From Rhodococcus sp. W8901 (GTDB lineage Bacteria > Actinomycetota > Actinomycetes > Mycobacteriales > Mycobacteriaceae): a stretch of 64,000 nucleotides of DNA. The stretch covers positions 744,001 through 808,000 of the forward strand of contig NZ_CP054690.1 of NCBI RefSeq assembly GCF_013348805.1. The letters run 5' to 3'. The translations under genes and the position numbers were made by a program. Below are positions 40,044 through 51,914 of this stretch, one piece after another (position 1 is the first letter of the stretch; every line of letters starts with the position of its first letter). Below the pieces are notes generated by a model. It made no database searches. It had not been told where the DNA came from and saw nothing but the letters and a program-made list of their open reading frames with translations.

Positions 40044-41630
40044 ATGACGTCCGCTGCGGTCGGGACACGCCCCGCCCGGGCCTCGTTGGTCCTGACGGCC
40101 CTGATCCTCGTCGCCGCCGTGGCGAACCTGAACCTGGCGGTGGCCAATGTCGCGCTGCCCGACATCGGTCGGGCCTTCGACGCGAGCCAGACGCAGCTGA
40201 ACCTGATCGCCGTCGGGTACTCCGTCGGGCTCGCGGGTTCGGTGCTCTACCTCGGTGCCCTCGGTGACCGGTTCGGCCGCAAGATGATGCTGGTGCTCGG
40301 CATGGTGCTGTCGCCGCCCGCGTGCATCATCGCCGCGTTCGCGCCGACCGTCGAGGTGCTGATCCTCGCGCGCCTGCTCGGGGGTGTCGCGGCCGGGATG
40401 GCCTTCCCGACCACCCTCGCGCTGATCACCGCGCTCTGGTCGGGGGCCGGCCGGACCAAGGCGATCGCTCTGTGGTCCGCGATCGGGGGCGGCATCTCCT
40501 CGCTCGGCCCGCTCGTGTCCGGTGCCCTGTTGCAGTCGTTCGACTGGGGTTCGGTGTTCCTGGTGACGGTGCCGCTCGCGCTGGTCGCACTGGGGTTCGC
40601 CGTGTTCTTCGTGCCGAGCCACGTCAACGAGTCGACCGATCCGGTGGACCATCTGGGCGGGATCGTTTCCGTGGTCCTGGTGGCTGCACTGGTGTTGGGG
40701 ATCAACTTCGCTCCCGTCGACGGTATGCGCATGACCGCGTTGTCGATGCTGCTGGTCGCGGCCGCCGCGGGCATTGCGTTCGGAATACGGCAGTTGCGGG
40801 CGAAGTACCCGCTGTTCGACCTGCGGGTGGCCCGCAGGCGGATCTTCTGGGTGGCGGCGGTCGCGGGCATCGTCGTGTTCGGCACGCTGATGGGGACGTT
40901 GTACATCGGTCAGCAGTTCATGCAGAACGTGCTCGGCTACTCCACGCTGGCCGCGGGCTCCGCGGGTCTGCCCGCGGCGGCCGTCATGGTGGTGGTGGCG
41001 CCGCAGTCGGCCAAGCTGGTCGAGTCGCACGGCGCGCGGTTCACCCTCTTGCTGGGATACACGGCGATCGTGCTGGGACTGTTGGTGGCCCTGCTGCTGT
41101 GGAAGGAGGACGCGCAGTACTGGAAGATCGCGCTCGGCTACATGTTCCTCGGCGCGGGCGTCGGACTCGCCGGCACGCCCGCCTCGCATTCGCTGACCGG
41201 GTCGGTGCCGGTGTGGCGGGCGGGAATGGCGTCGGGCACCGCGGACCTGCAGCGCGACCTGGGTGGCGCCATCGTGCAGTCGGTGCTCGGCGCGCTGCTC
41301 ACCGCCGGATACGCGGCCTCGTTCGCTGCCTCGATCGCCGCCAGTCCGGACTCCGGCGCCGTCAGTGATCAGACCGAGGCCGCGTTGGAGAAGTCGTTCG
41401 CCGGTGCCGAGAACGTCGCGGAGCGGTACCCGCAGTACGCGGACGCGATCACCGCCGCCGCCCGTGCGGCCTTCCTCGACGGTGACACCCGCGCGTACAG
41501 CGCGGCGATCGTGATCGTCCTGGTCGGTGCGGCGCTCGTCTTCTTCGCCTACCCGCACCGCGATCGGGAACGGGAACTGTTCGCGCAGTATCACGAGACC
41601 GACGAGGCGACCGAGCGCGCCGACCGGTGA
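40044..41630 (+). CDS. MFS transporter (DHA2-type)
   Basis: A 528-residue exporter with about 14 membrane segments. The first segment has NLNLAVANVALPDI, motif A is LGDRFGRKMM, and an extracytoplasmic loop of about 90 residues precedes the last segment, as in QacA/EmrB relatives and in the exporter at 1942-3639. The substrate is unknown. Divergent from the nucleoside kinase-like gene, with 165 bases between. Confidence 0.85.
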   Translation: MTSAAVGTRPARASLVLTALILVAAVANLNLAVANVALPDIGRAFDASQTQLNLIAVGYSVGLAGSVLYLGALGDRFGRKMMLVLGMVLSPPACIIAAFAPTVEVLILARLLGGVAAGMAFPTTLALITALWSGAGRTKAIALWSAIGGGISSLGPLVSGALLQSFDWGSVFLVTVPLALVALGFAVFFVPSHVNESTDPVDHLGGIVSVVLVAALVLGINFAPVDGMRMTALSMLLVAAAAGIAFGIRQLRAKYPLFDLRVARRRIFWVAAVAGIVVFGTLMGTLYIGQQFMQNVLGYSTLAAGSAGLPAAAVMVVVAPQSAKLVESHGARFTLLLGYTAIVLGLLVALLLWKEDAQYWKIALGYMFLGAGVGLAGTPASHSLTGSVPVWRAGMASGTADLQRDLGGAIVQSVLGALLTAGYAASFAASIAASPDSGAVSDQTEAALEKSFAGAENVAERYPQYADAITAAARAAFLDGDTRAYSAAIVIVLVGAALVFFAYPHRDRERELFAQYHETDEATERADR

Positions 41631-41712
41631 TCCTGAGCAAATCGCGAGTACCGGACGAGGTGTCGGTGAACACTGGTGGATGTCACCCGCACACTCCGAC
41701 GGAAGGACTCCC

Positions 41713-42147
41713 ATGCCCACACGTACCGCACGCACCGCCTGGAAAGGGACGCTCGAAAAGGGTTCGGGCCAGGTCGAACTCACCAGTTCGGGGGCGGGCA
41801 CCTTCGAGGTGTCGTTCCCGAAGCGGGCCGCCGAGGACGCCGGGGGCACCACCAGTCCGGAGGAACTGATCGCGGCCGCGCACTCGTCCTGCTACGCGAT
41901 GCAGTTGTCCGCCCTGATCGGCGAGGCGGGTGGGGTCCCGCAGAGTCTCGACATCCGCGCCGACGTATCGCTCGGCCCCGACGATCCGGGCTTCAAGCTC
42001 ACCGGGATCACGCTCACTGTCCGCGGTGAGGTGGACGGCCTGGACGCTGCGGGGTTCGCCCGTGTGGCCCAGGCGGCCAAGGAGTCCTGCCCTGTGAGCA
42101 AGGCCCTCACCGGCGTCACGGTCACGCTGGATGCCGCGCTCGAGTAG
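41713..42147 (+). CDS. OsmC/Ohr family peroxiredoxin-like protein
   Basis: A 144-residue protein of the OsmC branch, which reduces organic hydroperoxides through two cysteines: HSSCYAMQLSALI carries the peroxidatic Cys and AKESCPVSKAL the resolving one. Length is typical. ATG 41713 follows GGAAGGAC. It converges with the cobalt-enzyme operon (58-base gap). Confidence 0.9.
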   Translation: MPTRTARTAWKGTLEKGSGQVELTSSGAGTFEVSFPKRAAEDAGGTTSPEELIAAAHSSCYAMQLSALIGEAGGVPQSLDIRADVSLGPDDPGFKLTGITLTVRGEVDGLDAAGFARVAQAAKESCPVSKALTGVTVTLDAALE

Positions 42148-42205
42148 TCCGTATGGCGGGTGCTCGAACGTTACTGTGGCGGAATCGCTTCCGGTGACCT
42201 TGCGG

Positions 42206-42538
42206 TCAGGCTCGTTCGAGCCTCGCCCGGATCCGGTCCATCTTCGCCTTCAGTTCGTCCTGCGTGACGATGCCGCGGTCGAGCAGCGTGTGCGCGGTGG
42301 TGATCGCGGACCGGGAGTGGACCGGGAACTCGCTGTAGATGGTTTCGCCCAGTTCGTCCTCGGTGTGCCGGCGCTCGAGGTTGTCCCACGCGCCGCGCCA
42401 CGACAGGCATTCGACCGTGGCCTGCATTGCCGACTCCCACGGGTCCGGCTTGCGGTCGGTGTCGGGGAGGGCTCCGCCGCGCTCGGAGCCTTCTTTCAGT
42501 GTGCCGAGGATGACCTCGTATCCCTGTGCCGTGGTCAC
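42206..42538 (-). CDS. Nitrile hydratase/thiocyanate hydrolase accessory (cobalt chaperone-like) protein
   Basis: 110 residues. It shares ECLSWRGAWDN, RR...EDELGETIY and a C-terminal helix ending RIRARLERA with the split beta N-terminal subunit encoded two genes upstream (ECLTWRGSWNS, DLGETQYF, EVRARLQEARK). Activator proteins of Co-type nitrile hydratases and of thiocyanate hydrolase are homologues of the beta N-terminus and deliver cobalt, so this is the likely role. Start GTG overlaps the stop of the metal-site subunit by 4 bases. Last gene of the operon. Confidence 0.7.
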   Translation of the reverse strand: MTTAQGYEVILGTLKEGSERGGALPDTDRKPDPWESAMQATVECLSWRGAWDNLERRHTEDELGETIYSEFPVHSRSAITTAHTLLDRGIVTQDELKAKMDRIRARLERA

Positions 42539-43242
42539 TTGCCACCTCCCGAAGACGGCGCGGACGGCGCCTCGGATGCGTCCCAGTCGGCGGACGGCAG
42601 TGCCACACCGATCATCGTGTCGCGGGTGACGATCTTCTCGAGCTGTTCCTCGGTCCAGCCCTCGGTGCCCCCGGGGCGCATCGGCATGACCATGAACCGC
42701 GACTTCTGGTTCGAATCATGCACGCGCACTTCCACATCGGACGGGAAGTGTAGTCCGAACTCGGCGAGAACCTCGCGGGGGCGCCGCACCATGCGTCGAC
42801 GGTAGTTCGGCGTCCAGTACCAGTCCGGCGACATTCCCAGCACGGGGCGCGGGTAGCACGAGCACAGCGTGCACACGATCACGTTGTGCACCGTCGGGGT
42901 GTTCTCGAGGACGTAGAAGTAGGTGTAGTCACTCGGTGTTCCGGAGCCGGTGGGGTCCCTCCAGTCGATGCCCACCTCCTTACAGGTCTCGGTCCCGTCC
43001 TCGAGCAGGCGCTTTTTGAACTCGGGATCGGTCCAAGCCTTGACCACGAGTTTCGACCCGCCGGAGGGTCCGATCGACTCGGCCCACTCGGAGAAGCGGC
43101 GGTGATCCTCGGCGGAGAACAGACCCTTCTCGATCGCGAGTTCGCGCAGCGCGAGTTCCAGGACCTCGAACTCGCTGACCTCCTCGGAGGCCTGGATGGG
43201 CGCGTGTGCATCCTTGCCGGAATGGCTGTGTGAGTCGCTCAC
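42535..43242 (-). CDS. Co-type nitrile hydratase alpha / thiocyanate hydrolase gamma subunit (scnC-like)
   Basis: A 235-residue catalytic subunit. The metal site VCTLCSCYPR holds the three cysteines (two normally oxidised to sulfinic and sulfenic acid) that bind a non-corrin cobalt; Thr between the cysteines indicates cobalt rather than iron. DWYWTPNYRRRMVRRPREVLAEFG is the family-typical segment after it. A His-rich N-terminus (SDSHSHSGKDAH) is unusual. GTG 43242 follows AGGAGGAG. Hydration of nitriles or hydrolysis of thiocyanate cannot be told apart by eye, but the split beta subunit favours the thiocyanate hydrolase or toyocamycin-hydratase architecture. Confidence 0.88.
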   Translation of the reverse strand: MSDSHSHSGKDAHAPIQASEEVSEFEVLELALRELAIEKGLFSAEDHRRFSEWAESIGPSGGSKLVVKAWTDPEFKKRLLEDGTETCKEVGIDWRDPTGSGTPSDYTYFYVLENTPTVHNVIVCTLCSCYPRPVLGMSPDWYWTPNYRRRMVRRPREVLAEFGLHFPSDVEVRVHDSNQKSRFMVMPMRPGGTEGWTEEQLEKIVTRDTMIGVALPSADWDASEAPSAPSSGGGK

Positions 43243-43250
43243 TTCTCCTC

Positions 43251-43547
43251 CTACTGGTCCTTCTCGGGAGCCCGGAGCCAGCCCTCCGCGCATTCGGTCT
43301 CGAGCGTGTCGATGTCGTACCCGGTGTAGCGGGGCCACAGATCGGTCTGCTTGAACGAGACGACGTAGAACGGTTCCTTGCGGCCGGTCTCGAGCTTGTC
43401 GAAGGCCTCGTCCTCCGGAATCACCCATTCGGGTCGGTGCGCGACGACGGTGCCGGTCTGGTTGCGCACGTAAGCCTGTGTGCGCGTGTGGAAGAGGCTG
43501 GTCTGGTCCTTGACGACCACGCGGTCGCCGACTTTGAACTTCGGCAT
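43251..43547 (-). CDS. Split beta-subunit C-terminal part (scnA-like)
   Basis: A 98-residue SH3-like domain matching the C-terminal half of nitrile hydratase beta: KFKVGDRVVVKD, HTRTQAYVRNQTGTVVAH and the closing LETECAEGWL. In thiocyanate hydrolase this half is a separate alpha subunit. The ATG shares its A with the stop of the upstream gene (TGATG), so translation is coupled. It ends 8 bases before the metal-site subunit. Confidence 0.85.
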   Translation of the reverse strand: MPKFKVGDRVVVKDQTSLFHTRTQAYVRNQTGTVVAHRPEWVIPEDEAFDKLETGRKEPFYVVSFKQTDLWPRYTGYDIDTLETECAEGWLRAPEKDQ

Positions 43548-43978
43548 CACTTCCTCGCCTCCTGCAGCCGTGCCCGCACCTCGTCGATCTTGTCGGAGAG
43601 TTCGTCGAGGGGAATCAGCCCCTTGTCGACCATCACCTTCGCGGCGACGGTGATCCATCGTGCGTAGTACGGGAGCCCGAAGTACTGGGTCTCACCGAGG
43701 TCGACCTCGGCCCGACGGCGCATCTCGGAGTTCCACGAACCGCGCCACGTGAGGCATTCGCACGTGAGGTACGTGTTCATCTCCCAGTCCTCTTCCGGCT
43801 TCTCCTTGTACTCGACCGGGAGTGCCGGCTGCCCGCCGACGTCGTGCAGGACGTGCCGCAGGATGTCGTACTGCGCGTTGGTGATCGAGTACGGCGAGTC
43901 CTGCGCGTCGTGGACTGCGGGGGTGATCTGTGCCAGACCGTCGGTGAGGGTCTGGAATTGTGCCTGGGTGGTGCTCAC
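43547..43978 (-). CDS. Split beta-subunit N-terminal part (scnB-like)
   Basis: 143 residues matching the N-terminal half of nitrile hydratase beta, including ECLTWRGSWNSEMRRR and LGETQYFGLPYYARW, then a helix with VMVDKGLIPLDEL. In thiocyanate hydrolase this is the beta subunit, and the order scnB-scnA-scnC known from Thiobacillus is kept here. GTG 43978 follows AAGGGAG. It lies 64 bases after cbtA. Confidence 0.85.
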   Translation of the reverse strand: MSTTQAQFQTLTDGLAQITPAVHDAQDSPYSITNAQYDILRHVLHDVGGQPALPVEYKEKPEEDWEMNTYLTCECLTWRGSWNSEMRRRAEVDLGETQYFGLPYYARWITVAAKVMVDKGLIPLDELSDKIDEVRARLQEARK

Positions 43979-44042
43979 GGAGGTCTCCCTTCCATGTGGG
44001 TCCGGTGGTTCGTGGTGCTCCGAATCCTCGTCAGGTCCCCTC

Positions 44043-44588
44043 CTACGGTCGTGAGGTGCCGGTCGGCGCCTGCCCCGGCGTGGATGCGGGTGCCGTGGTG
44101 GGGGAGGCCGGGCCGCGCTGTGCCCGTTCGGTGAGGTAGGCGTAGACCAGTCCCAGGCTCAGCCACAGCGTGGCCTGCGTCGCCAGCGACGACACCCGGA
44201 ACTGCCACAGCAGAGTTGCGGGGAAGTCCTCTCCCACCTCGTTCACGGTCGGCAGCAGGAGATAGCCGACGGTGACGATCGCGAGGAAGGTGACGATCGC
44301 GGAGGCGGTCCGTACCGTCCAGTAGTGTTGCGACGCAAGCGCCTTGGCGACGTAGACGGCGGCCCCCACGGCCGCGAGCCCGAGTACGAGCGCGGCCAGC
44401 CACAGCAGCGTCCGCTCGTTGATGGTGTCCGGATCGCCGACTGCGGGCGCGGATTCCTCGATCGTGACGGCAGTCGTGACGTGCGGTTCACCGAGCGCGA
44501 AGGCGACTGCGCCGGTGAGGAGTCCGGCGATCAGCCCGGCGAGAAGGCCTCGCAGCAGCAGGCTCTTCAACGATCCTGCTAGTGGCAC
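44043..44588 (-). CDS. cbtA: CbtA family cobalt transporter subunit, short form
   Basis: A 181-residue membrane protein with four hydrophobic segments. It matches the paralogue at 48138-48941 at both ends (LLRGLLAGLIAGLL, GDPDTINERTLLWLA, INEVGEDFPATLLW-like VNEVGEDFPATLLW), but lacks about 103 residues between IEESA and PAVGDPDT, including a His-rich loop and two membrane segments. CbtA with CbtB is predicted to import cobalt. Its place directly before a cobalt enzyme supports that. The start GTG overlaps the cbtB stop by 10 bases. Confidence 0.85.
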   Translation of the reverse strand: MPLAGSLKSLLLRGLLAGLIAGLLTGAVAFALGEPHVTTAVTIEESAPAVGDPDTINERTLLWLAALVLGLAAVGAAVYVAKALASQHYWTVRTASAIVTFLAIVTVGYLLLPTVNEVGEDFPATLLWQFRVSSLATQATLWLSLGLVYAYLTERAQRGPASPTTAPASTPGQAPTGTSRP

Positions 44589-44773
44589 GGGAGCCCCAGG
44601 AGGTGGCGGCCGTCGTGCATCAGTTCGTGCATGTACATCCCGGTGCGGGAGATCGCGCCCTGGTCGAAGCCGACGAGATAGAGCGTGAGCAGGGCGAGGA
44701 GAACCACACCCACCGCGACGAGCGCGATGCCGAGTGATTCGATCGCCCGATTCGGGCTGTGGACGAGAGTCAT
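44579..44773 (-). CDS. cbtB: CbtB family cobalt transporter subunit
   Basis: A 64-residue protein with one membrane segment followed by the CbtB signature YLVGFDQGAISRTGMYMHELMHDGRH-type tail; the histidines in MHELMHDGRHLLG are likely cobalt ligands. ATG 44773 has a strong AGGAGGAAC site. First gene of a six-gene operon (cbtB-cbtA-scnB-scnA-scnC-chaperone). Confidence 0.88.
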   Translation of the reverse strand: MTLVHSPNRAIESLGIALVAVGVVLLALLTLYLVGFDQGAISRTGMYMHELMHDGRHLLGLPCH

Positions 44774-45108
44774 GGTTCCTCCTGGGGTGCGTCCGAACAC
44801 CGCTGGCTTGTCATGCGCTGCGATCGAAGCGGCCGGAGAACTCGATTCGGCCGGGCGGCCGAAGCCGTGGGCGACCGCCGACTGTGGGAGCGGCCGCCGG
44901 CCGGGCGGAAGGCGTCACTGACGCTACGCGGCCGATGCGGTGGATCTCGCGGACTTGTGGACTTCAGACAACCGCGAATGCATCGTCGGACGCGACGGAA
45001 CGAGACGGGATGTCGGACAAACGGGTACGACCCCGGAAACCGCACTTTCGGCCGATTCGCCGACGTGGTCTGTGCAATACTCCGGCCACTGACGACGGGG
45101 AGCTGGTC
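44774..45108. other. Divergent promoter region of the cobalt-enzyme operon
   Basis: 335 bases between cbtB and the HxlR-type regulator. Contains an 18-bp palindrome (44846-44863) but no supported gene. I looked for a cobalamin riboswitch B12 box and saw none on the cbtB side. Confidence 0.5.
44846..44863. promoter_or_regulatory. 18-bp perfect palindrome, operator candidate
   Basis: TTCGGCCG-GG-CGGCCGAA (8+2+8) lies 73 bases upstream of the cbtB start codon, in the region shared with the divergent HxlR-type regulator. It could be the regulator's operator or a leader hairpin. High GC content makes such palindromes less surprising here. Confidence 0.4.
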
Positions 45109-45582
45109 ATGCGTGGGGGCGGCTACGTAGTGGATCCGGGTGGCGACAACGCGCTCGCAATCGCATTCGGTCTGCTCGGCGACGAATGGAATCTGTGGAT
45201 CCTCGACCATGCCCTGCGCGGGGCGCGACAGTACAGCGACTGGGCGGGTAGGGGGAAGATCTCGAACTCGGTCCTGACCGGACGGCTCGCCTGGCTGACC
45301 GACGCGGGCCTGCTCGACAAGGTCGTGTTCCCGATCGCTTCGGCGCGGCCCGAGTATCTGCTCACCGATCGCGGCCGCGCGGTGTGGCCGATCCTGGCGG
45401 CGATGTGGTCGTGGGAGCGTGAGTGGGCGCCGGACGGTCCGGCCGGTCTGTTGCGGGTGCGGCACGTCGACTGCGGGGCCGAGTTCACCCCGGTGATGGT
45501 GTGCGCGCGGTGCCGGGAGCCGGCCGGGTTGGACGACGTGACTGCGAGTCTCGGTCCGGGCGCCCAGGTCGCGCGTGGATAA
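45109..45582 (+). CDS. HxlR family transcriptional regulator with C-terminal zinc-ribbon-like motif
   Basis: A 157-residue winged-helix regulator: GDEWNLWILDHALRGARQY and the typical ISNSVLTGRLAWLTDAGLL recognition region. The C-terminus adds four cysteine/histidine-type residues (HVDCGAEF, VCARCREP), a small metal-binding ribbon not found in minimal HxlR proteins. As it is divergent from the cobalt-enzyme operon, it may sense cobalt, thiocyanate or a thiol state, which is inference. ATG 45109 follows GGGGAG; longer in-frame starts exist. Confidence 0.8.
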   Translation: MRGGGYVVDPGGDNALAIAFGLLGDEWNLWILDHALRGARQYSDWAGRGKISNSVLTGRLAWLTDAGLLDKVVFPIASARPEYLLTDRGRAVWPILAAMWSWEREWAPDGPAGLLRVRHVDCGAEFTPVMVCARCREPAGLDDVTASLGPGAQVARG

Positions 45583-45599
45583 CAGTCCGTGGTAAATCT

Positions 45600-45615
45600 A
45601 GTGACCTAGATCACA
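45600..45615. promoter_or_regulatory. CRP/GlxR-type operator candidate
   Basis: AGTGACCTAGATCACA matches 15 of 16 positions of the cAMP-receptor-protein consensus TGTGA-NNTANN-TCACA used by Crp/GlxR in actinobacteria. It lies 55-70 bases upstream of the ligase start codon at 45670. Confidence 0.6.
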
Positions 45616-45669
45616 CCTCTAACTGAAGTGACGACGGTCGGGGCGTCGGATCGACGGAAGGGAAGGCAT

Positions 45670-47339
45670 ATGGGGAGCCTGAAGATTCACCCTCAGATCC
45701 GGATCACCGAGTACACCGCTTCCGGCGCGTGGACTCCGGAGACAGTCCGACAACTCTTCGCCGATCGGGTGCGGGACCGTGGATCCCAGCTTGCGGTGGT
45801 CGATCCCGTGAACAAGGCCGAGCAGGTCGACGCGCTGCCGCGTCGGGTCACGTGGGCGAACTCGATGTCGAGGTCGACCGGTTGGCGGCGGTGCTGCTCG
45901 AGGCCGGGATCAGGGCCGGCGAGGTGATCGCCGTCCAGTTGCCGAACACCGTCGAACAGGTCGTCGTCTTCCTCGCATCCTGGCGGATCGGTGCGATCGT
46001 GTCGCCGCTGCCGGTGCATTCGACCGATGCGGAGATCGTCGAGACGTGCAACGAGTCGTGTGCCAGTGCCTTCGTCACCGCGGGTCGGATCGGATCGAGT
46101 CCCGTCGCCGGTCGGGTGATGTCCGTGCGGTCGCAGATCCCCACGCTTCGGGTCGTCCTCAGCTACGGGGTGGGTGTGCCCGACGGCGTCGTGCGGATCG
46201 GGCACACGGTGCCGACGGCAGCCGACATCGAAAGGGTTGCCGAGTACGCGACAACGCACGTCGTCGACCCCAACGACTGCATCGCCATCTGCTGGACGGC
46301 AGGAACGGAGGGCGAACCCAAGGGGGTGCCGCACGCCCACTACGAGTCGCTCGCCCAGGCTCGGGCCCTCGTCCGATACGCGTCGCTGACCGTCGACGAC
46401 GTGATCCTCAACCCGTTCCCGATGATGACGGCCGCGGGGATCGTCGGAACGCTGCTGCCGTGGCTCTCCGTCGGATGTGTGCTGGTGCAGCATCAGCCGC
46501 CCGACCTCGATGTCTTTCTGCGTCAGATCGCGGAGGAGAAGGTCACCTACACCGCGGGGCGGCCGGCGGTACTCGCTGAGATCGAACGGCGTGAGGGGCC
46601 CACGGTCGACCTGTCGACCCTCACCCGGATCGGCGTAGGCGCCGGACCGATGTCGCCCGACACGGTGCGGAAGTGGAAGGAGAGTTACGGGGTCGAGTTG
46701 ATCAACTTCTTCGGCAGCGTCGAGGGCGTGAGCCTGCGCTCGGCGCCGACGGGCGTGGCGCGGGGACAGCGGACTCTGCTGTATCCGCGGGCAGGCGACG
46801 CCACGGGAGCCGAGGTCGATCTGGTGGACGGCCGCACCGGAGACGAGATCGTCGTCCCGGGCGTTCCCGGGGAACTCCGGGTCAAGGGGCCGACGGTGTT
46901 CGCGGGGTACCTCAACCCGGCGCGGGACCGGGATCCGTTCGACGAGGACGGCTTCCTCCGGACCGGCGACCTGTTCGTGATCGACGGTCCGGGCGACGGG
47001 TACCTCAGGTTCGTCGACCGGGCTGCCGACCTCATCGTGCGCGACGGCGTCCCGATCGGATCGGCCGAGTTGGAGATGCTGATCGCGGAGCATCCCTCTG
47101 TCGCGGAGGTGGCGGTCGTCGGATGCCCCGACGGCGGGACGGGCGAACGCGTCGTCGCGGTCGTGGGATGTCGGCCCGGATCGATCCTCGATCTCGACGA
47201 GTTGGTCGAGCACCTCGAGAGCCGGGGTGTCGGCGCCGACGAGGCGCCGCAGCGCCTGGTCGTCTCCAAAGCCCTGCCGCGCAACCGGTCCGGCAAGATC
47301 CTCAAGCGGGAGTTACGGGAGCAGTTGAGTCGCGGCTGA
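45670..47339 (+). pseudogene. Acyl-CoA synthetase (AMP-forming) with a one-base frameshift
   Basis: An ANL-superfamily ligase of about 556 residues, read in two frames. ATG 45670 (after GGAAGG) encodes the N-terminus GSLKIHPQIRITEY to PRRVTW, then the frame shifts at the GGG run 45854-45856; with a fourth G it would continue GELDVEVDRLAAVLLEAGI into the long downstream frame. That frame has CWTAGTEGEPKGVPH (P-loop), FFGSVEGVSL, RTGDLFVID and the catalytic Lys in RNRSGKILKREL. All motifs are intact, so this is either a recent mutation or a sequencing error. The substrate is probably a carboxylic acid activated as CoA ester. Confidence 0.8.
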
Positions 47340-47392
47340 CCGCCCCCGGTGGGCGCGGAACAGGATGCGGGCGGCATGTGTTCGAATGGCTC

Positions 47393-48136
47393 GTGACCAT
47401 CGAGAACAATGCCGCCGTATCCGAATCCGATCAGCCGACCGTTTTGGTCGAGGTGTGGTCGGACATCGCCTGCCCGTGGTGCTACATCGGTAAGCGCCGC
47501 TTCGCGGCGGCCCTCGCCGACTTCCCGCACCGCGACCGTGTCGAGGTGGTGTGGCGGTCGTACCAGCTCGCTCCCGACACCCCGGTGGGTGCCCGGCGCA
47601 GTCAGCTCGAGGTCGTCGCGGAGCGTCGGGGCGTGCCGGTCGAGCAGGCGCGGGAGTTGTACGAGCACGTCGCCCGTACGGCTGCAGTCGACGGTTTGGT
47701 GATGGATCTCGACACCCTGACCGCGTCCAACACGTTCGACGCCCATCGCCTGCTGCATCTGGCCGGCGATCGGCAGGACGAGCTGCTCGAGGCGTTGTTC
47801 CGGGGATACTTCACGGACGGCAAGGTGATCGACGACCGGACCGTGCTCGTCGAGCTCGCCGCGAGCGCCGGCCTGGACGCCGACGAGGTCACAGCGGCGC
47901 TCGACGGCGACGCCGGCGCCGACCTGGTGCGGGCCGACATCGAGACGGCCCGCCAGCTGCAGGTGTCGGGGGTGCCGTTCTTCGTGGCGAATCGGCGTCT
48001 CGCGGTGTCGGGCGCGCAGCCGGCGGACGTGTTCGCGGAGCTGCTCCGTCAGGCGTACGACCAGACGGCAGGCGAAACCAGTGCAGCCCCCGGCGGTGAT
48101 GCCGAGGGCTGCACTGACGATACGTGCGCGATCTGA
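47393..48136 (+). CDS. DsbA family oxidoreductase (FrnE/HCCA isomerase-like)
   Basis: A 247-residue thioredoxin-fold protein with an inserted helical domain. The CXXC motif is in VWSDIACPWCYIGKRRF and the cis-Pro region is VSGVPFFVANRR, typical of the FrnE-like cytoplasmic branch. A Cys-containing tail (EGCTDDTCAI) is unusual and might be a second redox or metal site. GTG 47393 has no clear ribosome binding site. It ends 2 bases before the opposing cbtA. Confidence 0.88.
   Translation: MTIENNAAVSESDQPTVLVEVWSDIACPWCYIGKRRFAAALADFPHRDRVEVVWRSYQLAPDTPVGARRSQLEVVAERRGVPVEQARELYEHVARTAAVDGLVMDLDTLTASNTFDAHRLLHLAGDRQDELLEALFRGYFTDGKVIDDRTVLVELAASAGLDADEVTAALDGDAGADLVRADIETARQLQVSGVPFFVANRRLAVSGAQPADVFAELLRQAYDQTAGETSAAPGGDAEGCTDDTCAI
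48079..48116. terminator. Hairpin inside the 3' end of the DsbA-like gene
   Basis: An 11-bp outer stem (48079-48089 with 48106-48116) plus a 4-bp inner stem (48091-48094 with 48101-48104) lie within the last codons of the DsbA-like gene, just before the convergent cbtA stop. It could terminate both transcripts. Confidence 0.55.
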
Positions 48137-48137
48137 T

Positions 48138-48941
48138 CTAGCGGGTCACGCGGCGGTGGGCGCGTTCCGTGAGGAACGCGAACGCCAGCCCCAGCGCGAG
48201 CCACAGCATGGCCTGCGTTGCGAGCGAAGAGACCCGGAACTCCCACAGCAGCGTGGCCGGGAAGTCCTCGCCGACCTCGTTGATGCCGGGAAGCGCGATG
48301 TACCCGATTGCAGCCACGACGAGGAACGCGGCCACCTGGCCGATGACGCGCAGCGTCACCAGTTGCTGGTTGCGCAGTGCGCGCCCCACGTACACGGCCA
48401 CGGCCACGGCGGCCAGTCCCAGGATCACCGACGCGAGCCACAGCAGGGTGCGCTCGTTGATGGTGTCCGGGTCGCCGACGGCCGGCGGATTCGCCGGGTA
48501 CTTGAAGAACGGCACGGCTTCGATTGCGAGCCAACCGCATCCGGCGACGGCGATTGCCAGTAGCGGCCCGTTCACGGCGGTGAAACGGCGTGCGTAGTGC
48601 ACGACGACCGCGAAGATCGCACCGAGCGCCAGCCCGGCCAGCGCGGTTGCGAGGAACAGGCCTGCGCGCTGGCCGGTGCGGCTGACGAGGGGTTCTTCGT
48701 CACCGTGGGAGTGTCCCGCGGACTCTTCCGCGGCGCCGGGATCCGTGGTGGCCTCGCCCGCGTGATGGTCCGCTCCAGGCGCCTCGGCGGCTGCTGCCGA
48801 CTCCTCGATGTTGATCGCGGCCTGCACGTGCGGCTCGCCGAGCGTGAACGCGACGGCACCGGCGAGCAAGCCCGCGATCAGGCCGGCCAGCAGCCCGCGG
48901 AGGAGGGTCTTGAAACTGTCCGTGAGCGTGGTCAGTGGCAC
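48138..48941 (-). CDS. cbtA: CbtA family cobalt transporter subunit, full-length
   Basis: A 267-residue protein with about six hydrophobic segments and a His/Glu-rich loop at residues 57-83 (GADHHAGE, GHSHGDEE), a likely metal-binding region. The conserved stretches EVGEDFPATLLW and GDPDTINERTLLWLA mark the family. It overlaps cbtB by 10 bases in the same way as the copy at 44 kb, showing that the pair was duplicated as a unit. No cobalt enzyme follows it. Confidence 0.88.
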   Translation of the reverse strand: MPLTTLTDSFKTLLRGLLAGLIAGLLAGAVAFTLGEPHVQAAINIEESAAAAEAPGADHHAGEATTDPGAAEESAGHSHGDEEPLVSRTGQRAGLFLATALAGLALGAIFAVVVHYARRFTAVNGPLLAIAVAGCGWLAIEAVPFFKYPANPPAVGDPDTINERTLLWLASVILGLAAVAVAVYVGRALRNQQLVTLRVIGQVAAFLVVAAIGYIALPGINEVGEDFPATLLWEFRVSSLATQAMLWLALGLAFAFLTERAHRRVTR

Positions 48942-49141
48942 GGCAGGCCCAGCAGGTGCCGACCGTCATGCATGAGCTTGTGCATGTACATGCCGCTGCG
49001 GGAGATTGCCCCCTGGTCGAATCCGACCAGGTAGAGGGCCAGCATTGCGTGGAGAACTACTGCGACGGTGATGGCTCCGATCGCTGCCGGTTCCGTCGAT
49101 CCATCGCTCTGTCGAGCGCACTTTTGCACCCAGGGGGTCAC
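48932..49141 (-). CDS. cbtB: CbtB family cobalt transporter subunit, second copy
   Basis: 69 residues, one membrane segment and the same C-terminal block as the first copy (YLVGFDQGAISRSG, MHKLMHDGRHLLGLPCH). The N-terminus differs (VQKCARQSDG). GTG 49141 is the most upstream start and no ribosome binding site is evident. Confidence 0.8.
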   Translation of the reverse strand: MTPWVQKCARQSDGSTEPAAIGAITVAVVLHAMLALYLVGFDQGAISRSGMYMHKLMHDGRHLLGLPCH

Positions 49142-49207
49142 GGTGTCAATCGAGCGATGGGCACCGTGACCGAACCGGACGATTTGTCCGATGTGGAGGG
49201 GGATTCG

Positions 49208-49522
49208 TCAGGAACCGGACGCCGCTGCGACGTCGAGCACCACGTCGAACTCGAGCAGCGACGCACCGCTGGCGACCGGCTTCGCGCGCTCGCCGGCATG
49301 GGCTTCGCGGGCCGGGCCGCTGGCCCACGCCTGGAACGCCTCGTCGGACTCCCACTGCGTGACGACGAAGTAGCGGTTCTCGCCCTTCACCGGACGCAGG
49401 AGCTGGAATCCGAGGAACCCGGGGGAGTTCTCGACGGCGTGGGCGCGAGCGGCGAACCGCTTCTCCAGCTCGGGGCCGGCGCCCTCGGGGATCTCGATTG
49501 CGTTGATCTTCACGACTGCCAT
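49208..49522 (-). CDS. mhuD: Haem-degrading monooxygenase, MhuD type
   Basis: A 104-residue ferredoxin-like monooxygenase of the IsdG/MhuD group. Haem-handling residues of mycobacterial MhuD fall at the same positions: Asn7, Trp66 and His75 (VKINAIE, FQAWASG, REAHAGE). MhuD frees iron from haem without CO release. The N-terminal motif ENSPGFLGFQLLRPVKGE is nearly identical to the mycobacterial protein as I remember it. It is divergent from the hydrolase gene. Confidence 0.9.
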   Translation of the reverse strand: MAVVKINAIEIPEGAGPELEKRFAARAHAVENSPGFLGFQLLRPVKGENRYFVVTQWESDEAFQAWASGPAREAHAGERAKPVASGASLLEFDVVLDVAAASGS

Positions 49523-49565
49523 GACGTGAGGGTACTCCGGACGTCGGTGGGTTACCGTCGGTCTT

Positions 49566-50306
49566 GTGTTGCACGACGAGGGTGGGACGGGCCGGCCGAT
49601 ACTGCTGCTCCACGGGCTGATGGGCAGCTCGCGGACGTGGGTGCGGCACGTGCCCTGGCTGCGGGACCACGGCCGTGTCTACACATTCGACGCCGCCGGG
49701 CACGGACGCCCCATCGCGTCGGCTCCCACGACCGAACTCTTCGTGGCCGACCTCGCGGACGCGCTCGCCGCCGTCGACGAGCCGATCACCGTCATCGGCC
49801 ATTCCATGGGCGCGCTGCACGCGTGGTGCTTCGCGGCCGCCCATCCCGGGCGGGTTCGCGCGCTGGTGCTCGAGGACATGGCGCCGGACTTCCGTGGTCG
49901 GACGGCAAACGATTGGGCGGCAATGGTTTCCGCGTGGCCGCAGCCGTTCCCCACCGAGGAGTCCGTCCTGGACTACTTCGGAGAGGTGGCCGGCCGCTAC
50001 TTCCTCGACTCGTTCGAGCGCCGCGCCGACGGTTGGTACCTGCACGGTGACGTCGAGACGTTCCGCGACATCTCCGAGGAGTGGGGCACCCGCGACTTCT
50101 GGGCGCAGTGGGAGTCCGTGACGGCCCCCGCGCTGCTGATCGAGGGCGAGTTCACGATCACCCCGGAGGGACAGATGCGCCGCATGCTCGACGGCCACGA
50201 CGACGCCCGCTACGTGTGGGTCGCTCAAGCCGGGCACCTCGTCCACGACGATCAGCCCCAGCGGTACCGTGACGCCGTCGAAGAGTTCCTGAAGACGTTG
50301 GACTGA
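49566..50306 (+). CDS. Alpha/beta hydrolase
   Basis: A 246-residue alpha/beta hydrolase: oxyanion strand LLLHGLMGSSRTW, nucleophile elbow GHSMGALHA, acid near EGEFTITPEG, and catalytic His in AQAGHLVHDD. The substrate is unknown. GTG 49566 lies exactly 7 bases after TACCGT, so the message is probably leaderless. The gene is next to mhuD, as remembered for mycobacteria, and converges with mutY. Confidence 0.9.
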   Translation: MLHDEGGTGRPILLLHGLMGSSRTWVRHVPWLRDHGRVYTFDAAGHGRPIASAPTTELFVADLADALAAVDEPITVIGHSMGALHAWCFAAAHPGRVRALVLEDMAPDFRGRTANDWAAMVSAWPQPFPTEESVLDYFGEVAGRYFLDSFERRADGWYLHGDVETFRDISEEWGTRDFWAQWESVTAPALLIEGEFTITPEGQMRRMLDGHDDARYVWVAQAGHLVHDDQPQRYRDAVEEFLKTLD

Positions 50307-50309
50307 TCC

Positions 50310-51188
50310 TCAACTGCCCTCGCCGGCGAGGGCGAACAGTCCGTCCTCGGTCTGCTCGATCAACCCGTCGACGAGGAGCGAATCGAGTGCGCGGTCGCGC
50401 TGCCCGGGGTCGCTGAGCCACACGAGGTCGAGTCGCGCGCGCTCCACCGGGTGGGAGCTGTCGCGCAGCACGTCCATCAGCTTCCCGCGGACCTGGCGAT
50501 CCGTTCCCGCGAACTTCTGCACCTTGCGGGGCTCGCCGACGTGCGCGGGCCGCCCGGCCTCCACCCATGCGCAGGTCGCCAGTGGGCAGCTCGCACAGTC
50601 GGGGGTCCGGGCGGTGCACACCGTGGCGCCGAGCTCCATCAGTGCGGCGGAGAACCGTGCGGCGCGGGCCCGGGTGCGCGGCAGGAGCGCATCGACGTCC
50701 GCCATGTCGCGCTTCGCGGACGGATTGCCCTGATCCGCCCGGCCGTGAACGGCACGCGCGACGACGCGTCGAACATTGGTGTCCACTACGGGAACTCGCT
50801 GCCCGTATGCGAAACATGCCACGGCACGGGCGGTGTAGTCGCCGATCCCCGGCAGGCCCAGCAGGACGTCGACGTCGGTGGGCACCTGGTCGCCGTGCCG
50901 GTCGGCCAGCACGCCCGCGCACTCGTGCAGGCGCAGTGCCCGGCGCGGGTAGCCGAGCTTTCCCCACGCGCGCAGCACGTCCGCCTGGCTCGACGCGGCC
51001 ATCAGCGACGGCACCGGCCAGCGCCGCACCCATTCCTCCCAGATCGGCGCGACGCGGACGACGGGGGTCTGCTGCAGCATGATCTCGCTCATCAGAATGT
51101 GCCAGGCCGTCACGCCGTCGCGACGCCACGGCAGGTCCCGGGCCTGCTCGTCGTACCAGCGCAGCAGTGCTGAACCGTCCACCGACAT
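50310..51188 (-). CDS. mutY: A/G-specific adenine DNA glycosylase
   Basis: A 292-residue base-excision enzyme that removes adenine opposite 8-oxoguanine. Catalytic Glu is in SEIMLQQTPV (residue 35), the helix-hairpin-helix is LPGIGDYTA followed by VPVVDTNV with the catalytic Asp, and the [4Fe-4S] ligands form C-x6-C-x2-C-x5-C in VCTARTPDCASCPLATC. The C-terminal NUDIX-like domain is reduced, as in actinobacteria. ATG 51188 is the first start that keeps the family N-terminus. Confidence 0.95.
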   Translation of the reverse strand: MSVDGSALLRWYDEQARDLPWRRDGVTAWHILMSEIMLQQTPVVRVAPIWEEWVRRWPVPSLMAASSQADVLRAWGKLGYPRRALRLHECAGVLADRHGDQVPTDVDVLLGLPGIGDYTARAVACFAYGQRVPVVDTNVRRVVARAVHGRADQGNPSAKRDMADVDALLPRTRARAARFSAALMELGATVCTARTPDCASCPLATCAWVEAGRPAHVGEPRKVQKFAGTDRQVRGKLMDVLRDSSHPVERARLDLVWLSDPGQRDRALDSLLVDGLIEQTEDGLFALAGEGS

Positions 51189-51287
51189 CGAAACTCTCAC
51201 CCTTCTCCGCACACTGCCGGGCGCTCGTCGCGCCGTCGCCATCGGTCCAACCGAGACGGCGGCCACGCGAAGGTGCACAATTGCCGC

Positions 51288-51914
51288 ATGCCCAATTCCA
51301 ACCCGATCTCCGCTTGGAAAGCCCTCAAGCAGGGTAACGAGCGCTTCGTCAGTGGCACCCCGCTGCATCCGAGTCAGGGTATTGCCGACCGCGCGAAACT
51401 GGTCGACGCCCAGCACCCGACGGCAGTGCTCTTCGGTTGCGGCGACTCCCGCGTCGCCGCCGAGATCATCTTCGACGTCGGTCTCGGCGACATGTTCGTC
51501 GTCCGCACGGCCGGTCACGTCATCGACAGTTCGGTGCTCGGGTCCATCGAGTACGCCGTCGAGATCCTCAACGTGCCGCTCATCGTCGTGTTCGGCCACG
51601 ACGGCTGCGGCGCGGTCAAGGCCACGCTCGACGCCCTCGACAAGGGCCGGATCCCCAACGGCTTCATCCGCGACGTCGTCGAACGCGTGGCTCCGTCGAT
51701 CCTGATGGGTCGGCAGGAGGGCCTCACAACCGTCGACGAGCTCGAGGGCCGGCACGTGGTCGAGACCGGTTCGCTGCTGATGCAGCGTTCGCGCATCATC
51801 GCCGACCGGGTGGAGAAGGGCACGTGCGCAATCGTCGGCGTCACCTACAAGCTCTCCGACGGCGACATCAAGCTGCAGGGTGTGGTGGGTGACATCGGCG
51901 AGTCGGTGGACTGA
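51288..51914 (+). CDS. Beta-carbonic anhydrase
   Basis: A 208-residue zinc enzyme converting CO2 to bicarbonate. Zinc ligands are the Cys in GCGDSRVAAE, and the His and Cys in FGHDGCGAVKA; the Asp-Arg pair of GDSR is conserved. It corresponds to the canB position next to mutY in M. tuberculosis. ATG 51288 lies 6 bases after CACAAT with no ribosome binding site, a probable leaderless start. Confidence 0.95.
   Translation: MPNSNPISAWKALKQGNERFVSGTPLHPSQGIADRAKLVDAQHPTAVLFGCGDSRVAAEIIFDVGLGDMFVVRTAGHVIDSSVLGSIEYAVEILNVPLIVVFGHDGCGAVKATLDALDKGRIPNGFIRDVVERVAPSILMGRQEGLTTVDELEGRHVVETGSLLMQRSRIIADRVEKGTCAIVGVTYKLSDGDIKLQGVVGDIGESVD

Follow-up and report, generated by a model that had tools for sequence, protein, structure and literature searches.

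The window analysed here is a stretch of 64,000 nucleotides (G000:C1:744001-808000, contig NZ_CP054690.1) from the single-contig, 5.71-Mb genome of Rhodococcus sp. W8901, and our subject is a set of six close-set open reading frames (ORFs) on its minus strand at 42206-44773. In the order of transcription these are cbtB and cbtA (cbtB1 and cbtA1 below), named after a candidate cobalt transporter, then scnB, scnA and scnC, named after the subunits of thiocyanate hydrolase (SCNase), and lastly a gene for a P15K-like activator. Neighbouring ORFs overlap or are separated by 8 bp; only cbtA1 and scnB stand further apart, at 64 bp. Their Pfam matches are, in order, CbtB, CbtA (in two pieces), NHase_beta_N, NHase_beta_C, NHase_alpha and NHase_beta_N (NHase, nitrile hydratase), all above the curated cut-offs. 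The operon of six genes with cbt genes in front, as proposed in a preliminary description of this DNA, is thus found with all its ORFs in place and with the families expected; the "direct fusion" of importer and enzyme that the same description spoke of is mere adjacency of separate ORFs.

The identical six genes in the identical order were found in nine further genomes of the genus (loci L140-L148), and so the operon is not a product of chance. In the genome of W8901 this enzyme is the only one of its family at E <= 0.001 (1 match). Among the best 80 of 181 loci, to which all comparisons with named loci below refer and from which the genome of the window, or one very close to it, may be missing, the nearest named relatives of the enzyme are strains of the Prescottella/Rhodococcus equi group, at 91-92%.

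We read the locus as encoding a cobalt enzyme of the SCNase family that likely turns thiocyanate into carbonyl sulfide (COS) and ammonia, and whose cobalt is probably imported by CbtB of the operon together with an intact CbtA, CbtA2, encoded 4 kb away. We put the probability of this sequence-based reading at about 0.72. CbtA2 enters it because CbtA of the operon lacks its middle third.

Table 1. Positions in the window of the operon genes, of candidate control elements and of the second cbt gene pair
Feature	Position	Strand	Description and basis
cbtB1	44579..44773	-	64 aa; one predicted membrane helix; C-terminal His/Cys motif HELMHDGRHLLGLPCH; hydropathy, family alignment
cbtA1	44043..44588	-	181 aa from GTG start, internally deleted; two separated PF09490 pieces
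scnB, SCNase beta subunit (NHase beta, N-terminal half)	43547..43978	-	PF21006; best PDB match 2dd4_B, E 1.4e-37
scnA, SCNase alpha subunit (NHase beta, C-terminal half)	43251..43547	-	PF02211; best PDB match 2dd4_A, E 4.5e-18
scnC, SCNase gamma subunit	42535..43242	-	Cobalt loop CTLCSC, then YPRP; TIGR03887; best PDB match 2dd4_C, E 7e-90; tree
P15K-like predicted activator/maturation protein (NHase beta N-terminal fold)	42206..42538	-	PF21006, 33.3 bits; sole PDB match 2dd4_B, E 1.3e-12
Imperfect inverted repeat GTTGTCTGAAGTCCACAAG, candidate operator	44954..44972	-	180 bp upstream of cbtB1
Conserved GTAGCGTC, possible -10 region	44920..44927	-	Identical in 9/10 genus loci
cbtA2, intact CbtA paralogue, likely working partner	48138..48941	-	267 aa; PF09490, 249.7 bits; two His and KYPANPP invariant in alignment
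cbtB2, pairs with cbtA2, start codon uncertain	48932..49141	-	PF09489, 39.8 bits on shorter reading

The enzyme and its predicted substrate

The NHase beta subunit is here split into separate scnB and scnA genes, which are followed by the genes for the gamma subunit and the activator, as is the layout of SCNase genes. The best PDB matches of ScnB, ScnA, ScnC and the activator are all chains of 2dd4 named thiocyanate hydrolase, an entry that we take to be the Thiobacillus thioparus enzyme. Three further elements of the preliminary description are thereby borne out, namely the three-subunit SCNase-type enzyme in the order scnB-scnA-scnC (by the Pfam and PDB matches of each subunit), the Co-type metal-site subunit (by the CTLCSC loop of ScnC), and the chaperone-like product of the fourth gene of this set, a predicted activator with matches to PF21006 and 2dd4_B.

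The substrate had been left open in that description, between thiocyanate, a nitrile and a cyano-nucleoside, but the evidence on ScnC now favours thiocyanate. ScnC scores 385.2 bits against TIGR03887, the NCBIfam equivalog model of SCNase-gamma (cut-off 291.45), and fails the test for a Co-type NHase with 226.6 bits against TIGR01323, the NHase-alpha equivalog (cut-off 249.85). In the PDB alignment its cobalt loop reads CTLCSCYPRP, with the arginine corresponding by counting to residue 136 of 2dd4 ScnC, a position occupied by Trp in PDB entry 3vyg. ScnB retains in alignment the arginines at the Arg90 and Arg91 positions, which presumably matter for the metal site. A CxLCSC loop was present in 135 ORF rows (106 distinct), followed by YPR in 122, YPW in 9, YPI in 3 and TAW in 1. 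The 13 rows without arginine, relatives at 42-51%, thus carry Trp (10) or Ile (3) where ScnC has Arg, the Trp of TAW falling in the same place, and are presumed to be NHases or their kin.

In a maximum-likelihood tree of the 106 distinct rows, a single branch with support 100/100 separates the 93 rows with arginine from the 13 others, and ScnC falls on the SCNase side. The window protein entered this tree twice (L001 and L104), and several of the 13 are long branches. The phylogeny of the CTLCSC subunit proposed earlier thus comes out for SCNase as far as the presumed NHases are concerned; its rows are ORFs from loci rather than characterised enzymes, and hold no ToyJ. By sequence the enzyme belongs to the thiocyanate hydrolase family, and thiocyanate is clearly the best prediction for its substrate, because ScnC passes TIGR03887, misses TIGR01323, carries Arg after the loop and groups in the tree with the SCNase rows. 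As such the enzyme is of a known kind, and the operon alone is ordinary.

The tree and the named loci also showed a second SCNase branch, mostly mycobacterial, in which scnB and scnA are fused in one ORF (23 of the 80 named loci: L076-L080 and L083-L100); in most of its rows the loop reads CALCSC rather than CTLCSC and is likewise followed by Arg. The SCNase gamma of Ktedonobacter racemifer (L064, Chloroflexota) is nested within Rhodococcus sequences (89/69, long branch), hinting at a transfer from actinobacteria.

The cobalt centre of T. thioparus SCNase is established, and P15K is the SCNase activator. By analogy, the three Scn subunits would form a complex like that of Thiobacillus, in which the CTLCSC loop, loaded with cobalt with the aid of the P15K-like protein, would carry the Co(III) centre for the hydrolysis of thiocyanate to COS and ammonia. 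A separate homologous ORF for the P15K-like protein was found in 79/80 named SCNase loci (ORFs counted by best query), the one without it being L075. The overall reaction is that given for the enzyme class (PMC5328954). One review gives the SCNase gene order as alpha-beta-gamma with the activator last (PMC7193024), compared with beta-alpha-gamma-activator in the window. The ammonia is probably used as a nitrogen source, by analogy with Mycobacterium smegmatis, in which MSMEG_6266 and MSMEG_6267 showed expression ratios of 3.68 and 3.42 in nitrogen limitation (PMC4617892), and of 2.37- and 2.35-fold in a PII mutant on nitrate (PMC11001197).

Copies of CbtB and CbtA and the supply of cobalt

The product of cbtA1 matches PF09490 only at profile positions 2-40 and 131-238, and alignment with its relatives indicates an in-frame loss of about 94 residues, the middle third of the protein. 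Missing are the HSH loop with its two invariant histidines, helices 2-3, and the KYPANPP motif save its last residues, leaving four of the six predicted helices. The two histidines and KYPANP are invariant in 27 aligned full-length CbtA proteins; CbtA2 is itself full length, with the histidine pair and KYPANPP, and CbtA1 is not. AlphaFold models have four helices for the short CbtA (pLDDT, the predicted local distance difference test score, 69.8) and six for CbtA2 (pLDDT 75.5). The nine other scn-linked CbtA proteins found in the genus are all full length; together with the window copy they make up a single clade, where the latter is sister to the copy of G001. The window protein (P0008, 175 aa) has the same ends as P0009 of Rhodococcus sp. 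AG1013 (269 aa), is 94 residues shorter, and is 98% identical over the aligned part (among 120 of 652 matches listed). Since so close a relative is full length, the deletion is probably recent. P0008 represents a cluster of 4 sequences from 3 contigs of at most 13,684 bases, which suggests that the short form is present in other assemblies too.

An intact pair, cbtBA2, lies at 48138-49141, 4 kb upstream of the operon, in a setting (a hydrolase gene, mutY, a carbonic anhydrase gene and disA alongside) shared with the SCNase-less genomes G004, G008 and G012. G001 has no cbtBA at that mutY-disA place and a second pair on another contig. The cobalt-transporter genes that had been described in front of the enzyme are therefore there as cbtB and cbtA domains, but with a CbtA that lacks its middle third. 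The idea of a self-contained metal-supply unit fails on that loss and on the intact pair 4 kb off: from the genes present, a self-contained cobalt supply is unlikely in this strain.

We therefore counted CbtB and CbtA in the genomes of 61 relatives, which are related genomes and thus no test of independent events. There were 51 CbtB matches in 37 genomes (that of G019 below the cut-off), 48 of which have a CbtA alongside by coordinates, the window's short CbtA counted. The three without are in G033 and G035, where the lone CbtB lies directly upstream of scnB, and in G027, where it lies at G027:C12:792229-792393 on another contig than the SCNase. A close three-subunit SCNase (>= 86%) occurs in 12 genomes (G000-G003, G005, G007, G009-G011, G013, G033 and G035), the window's included. 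CbtB is linked to the SCNase in all 12. The CbtA at the same locus is intact in 9 of them, shortened in 1 (the window) and missing from 2 (G033 and G035). Two or more CbtB were found in 11 of these 12 compared with 3 of the 49 others (G021, G027 and G028). G005 is a mirror image of the window, in that its single cbtBA pair is scn-linked and full length; CbtA copies therefore look interchangeable, as far as gene content can tell.

A further 12 genomes behind the named loci were chosen on CbtB linkage, 7 with a lone CbtB near the SCNase and 5 without. Above cut-off, CbtB outnumbers CbtA by exactly one in each of the 7, the position of the surplus CbtB agreeing with the SCNase locus; this surplus is partly expected, as the genomes were picked for CbtB linkage. 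Each of the 5 has one CbtB and one CbtA. All 12 hold a CbtA, in two mycobacteria located away from the SCNase. In L043 the lone CbtB gene lies downstream, and in L048 it lies upstream in divergent orientation. Rhodococcus, with R. jostii and R. opacus (L030, L051) as examples, and two mycobacteria have next to the SCNase an additional CbtB that lacks a CbtA, and the counts suggest that in this group it is CbtB rather than CbtA that goes with SCNase. One of the two cbtBA pairs of G028 (G028:C6:51573-53578) lies about 0.5 kb from a presumed NHase alpha gene (YPWP), and because of this neighbour the linkage of cobalt genes may extend beyond SCNase.

A bolder proposal, which we hold to be rather doubtful, is that CbtB is an SCNase-dedicated, membrane-anchored cobalt handler with a HELMHDGRHLLGLPCH tail. 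Either alone or with cobalt received from a CbtA that the cell shares, it would serve the P15K-like activator and, through it, a cobalt enzyme without corrin; the adjoining CbtA would then be dispensable and in the course of being lost (absent in Rhodococcus, deleted here). If true, the importer would have in CbtB a subunit that routes cobalt to one particular enzyme.

Three other explanations were weighed. The enzyme might be a nitrile or cyano-nucleoside hydratase of the NHase/ToyJ type with an organic nitrile as its natural substrate, given that fold and cobalt loop are shared, that the NHase alpha model also scores well, and that a split beta subunit is in itself no proof of SCNase: toyocamycin nitrile hydratase, too, is a three-subunit enzyme. 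ScnC nevertheless stays below the NHase-alpha cut-off and well above that for SCNase-gamma, has Arg rather than Trp behind the metal loop and sits across the 100/100 branch from the presumed NHases, and a Pfam scan of six window neighbours found no amidase or nucleoside-biosynthesis gene, which together make this very improbable. It is also quite unlikely that CbtA in its shortened form still functions as a minimal transporter subunit and makes the operon self-sufficient for cobalt. Its reading frame is preserved with four helices predicted, and the 175-aa form, in its cluster on contigs of up to 13,684 bases, seems not confined to this assembly, but it lacks residues invariant in 27 full-length CbtA, including both histidines and KYPANP, the nine other linked CbtA of the genus and the close relative P0009 are full length, and the genome holds an intact paralogue.

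An accidental linkage, in which the SCNase operon landed by an ancestral cbtBA and the extra copy is a meaningless local duplication, would account for cbtBA2 being at the same place in the three SCNase-less genomes and for the named loci without linked cbt genes. We consider it unlikely, since the linkage recurs in differing arrangements in Actinomadura, Nonomuraea, Dactylosporangium and R. coprophilus, the lone CbtB may stand downstream or divergently upstream, all 7 lone-CbtB genomes checked have exactly one surplus CbtB, and a cbtBA pair adjoins the presumed NHase gene in G028.

Several points weigh against our preferred reading, that of an SCNase supplied through CbtB and CbtA2. CbtAB is a "candidate" cobalt transporter on prediction only (PMC2667541), and its cobalt-transport role is labelled "proposed" by NCBIfam. 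CbtB1, CbtA1 and CbtA2 pass the Pfam CbtB/CbtA cut-offs (CbtB1 with 53.7 bits, cut-off 27) but miss those of NCBIfam TIGR02459/02458 (CbtB1 with 19.7 bits against TIGR02459, cut-off 64.4). The shortened CbtA could still work, being in frame, with its remaining helices modelled at low confidence (pLDDT 69.8). Only 24/80 named SCNase loci have cbtA or cbtB in the flanks, which were examined up to 8 kb (some contigs, L045 among Nocardia, are shorter), and 56/80 have neither; none of the 15 Nocardia loci has a linked cbt gene despite a ScnC 80-85% identical to that of the window. A linked CbtB is hence not required for SCNase function in general. In the cbt-less loci L031, L079 and L081, one Pfam-scanned neighbour each included no metal transporter, a far from exhaustive search made on rough ORF lists of L031, L064, L079 and L081. 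Finally, MSMEG_6266/6267 likely belong to the fused-beta SCNase lineage, and the nitrogen analogy is therefore loose.

Upstream region and fate of carbonyl sulfide

The inverted repeat upstream of cbtB1, where a regulator would act, is kept in 9/10 aligned genus loci (absent in L148), with the exact form GTTGT-N9-ACAAC in 6/10. As a regulon motif it was rejected: the genome has 1 site at <= 2 mismatches compared with 5 for a reversed-pattern control. A promoter and terminator scan returned nothing, and no sigma-70 consensus site. Control of the cbt copies by a B12 riboswitch was also discarded, as there is no Rfam match in 41000-50500 at E <= 1 and none above gathering score in the window; the two cobalamin sites above cut-off in the genome are both elsewhere. 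An HxlR-type regulator gene (45109-45582) is divergent from the operon here and in L140. We did not retain it as the operon regulator: it is beside the operon in L140, about 3 kb away in L141-L143, not found in L144-L148, and present in the SCNase-less L151. Genes for an AMP-binding ligase and a DsbA-family protein (45729-48136) lie between operon and cbtBA2, a place kept in many relatives of the genus, with no evident link to thiocyanate.

A COS hydrolase (COSase) next door was considered and rejected, the beta-carbonic anhydrase at 51273-51914 matching carbonic anhydrase 2a5v (E 1.6e-89), presumably M. tuberculosis Rv3588c, and COSase 3vqj only weakly (E 2e-4). Nor was it kept as part of the pathway, its mutY-disA neighbourhood occurring also in relatives without SCNase. 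Outside the window, G000:C1:5091845-5092270 (L126) encodes a beta-carbonic anhydrase that resembles Rv1284 and COSase (best PDB matches 1ylk and 3vqj); compared with L133 it is 33 internal codons short, with the frame kept, and the missing stretch contains the HHTDCG motif, which we take to be zinc ligands. In 10/13 other genomes of the genus there are two matches, split at the site of the L126 loss. A Pfam search of the genome found only one other beta-carbonic anhydrase, that of the window. In actinomycetes, the breakdown of COS has been tied to beta-carbonic anhydrases of clade D (PMC7308577). Unless there is a further COSase, the COS formed would escape from the cell. The two short in-frame losses in one genome (cbtA1 and L126) concern genes that are both plausibly thiocyanate-related, and may be a coincidence.

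Comparison with known systems

With ScnABC of T. thioparus THI115 (2dd4) the window enzyme shares three separate subunits, the CTLCSC loop with Arg136 and the arginines at ScnB Arg90/Arg91, and we take the T. thioparus gene order to be scnB-scnA-scnC as well. The activator gene is last in both (PMC7193024). The window differs in its actinobacterial host, in an ScnA of 98 rather than 126 aa, and in having cbtB-cbtA in front. Actinobacterial SCNases are known from family trees (PMC10098168), and M. smegmatis MSMEG_6266/6267 are annotated as thiocyanate hydrolase, the same family by name, and raised in nitrogen limitation; they probably fall in the branch with fused scnB-scnA, in contrast to the separate genes here. 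A cyanase domain was not found in the genome of the window.

Co-type NHase operons (beta-alpha-activator) have in common with the window operon the fold, the metal loop, the activator and the idea of a linked cobalt transporter, the NHase of R. rhodochrous J1 being linked to the cobalt transporter NhlF. They differ in the unsplit beta subunit, the Trp after the loop and the transporter family. Compared with the candidate transporter CbtAB, the Pfam CbtB and CbtA matches are shared, but CbtA of the operon is internally deleted, and elsewhere CbtB stands beside SCNase without CbtA. Cobalt uptake genes beside SCNase have been noted in the proteobacteria Thiobacillus and Thioalkalivibrio, with different transporters (PMC5328954). 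Among the literature matches listed, which leave out most subscription papers, we found no description of a CbtB/SCNase link, nor anything of relevance on P15K.

Such an enzyme is carried by many species of Rhodococcus, Nocardia and mycobacteria among the best 80 of 181 loci, and this breadth bears on who degrades thiocyanate and releases COS. The copy counts single out CbtB as the component that follows SCNase in this group, and make the poorly characterised CbtAB family testable through an easy readout, SCNase activity at low cobalt. Set beside the known systems, the SCNase-linked cobalt module is an interesting variant, in which it is the CbtB pattern that merits testing.

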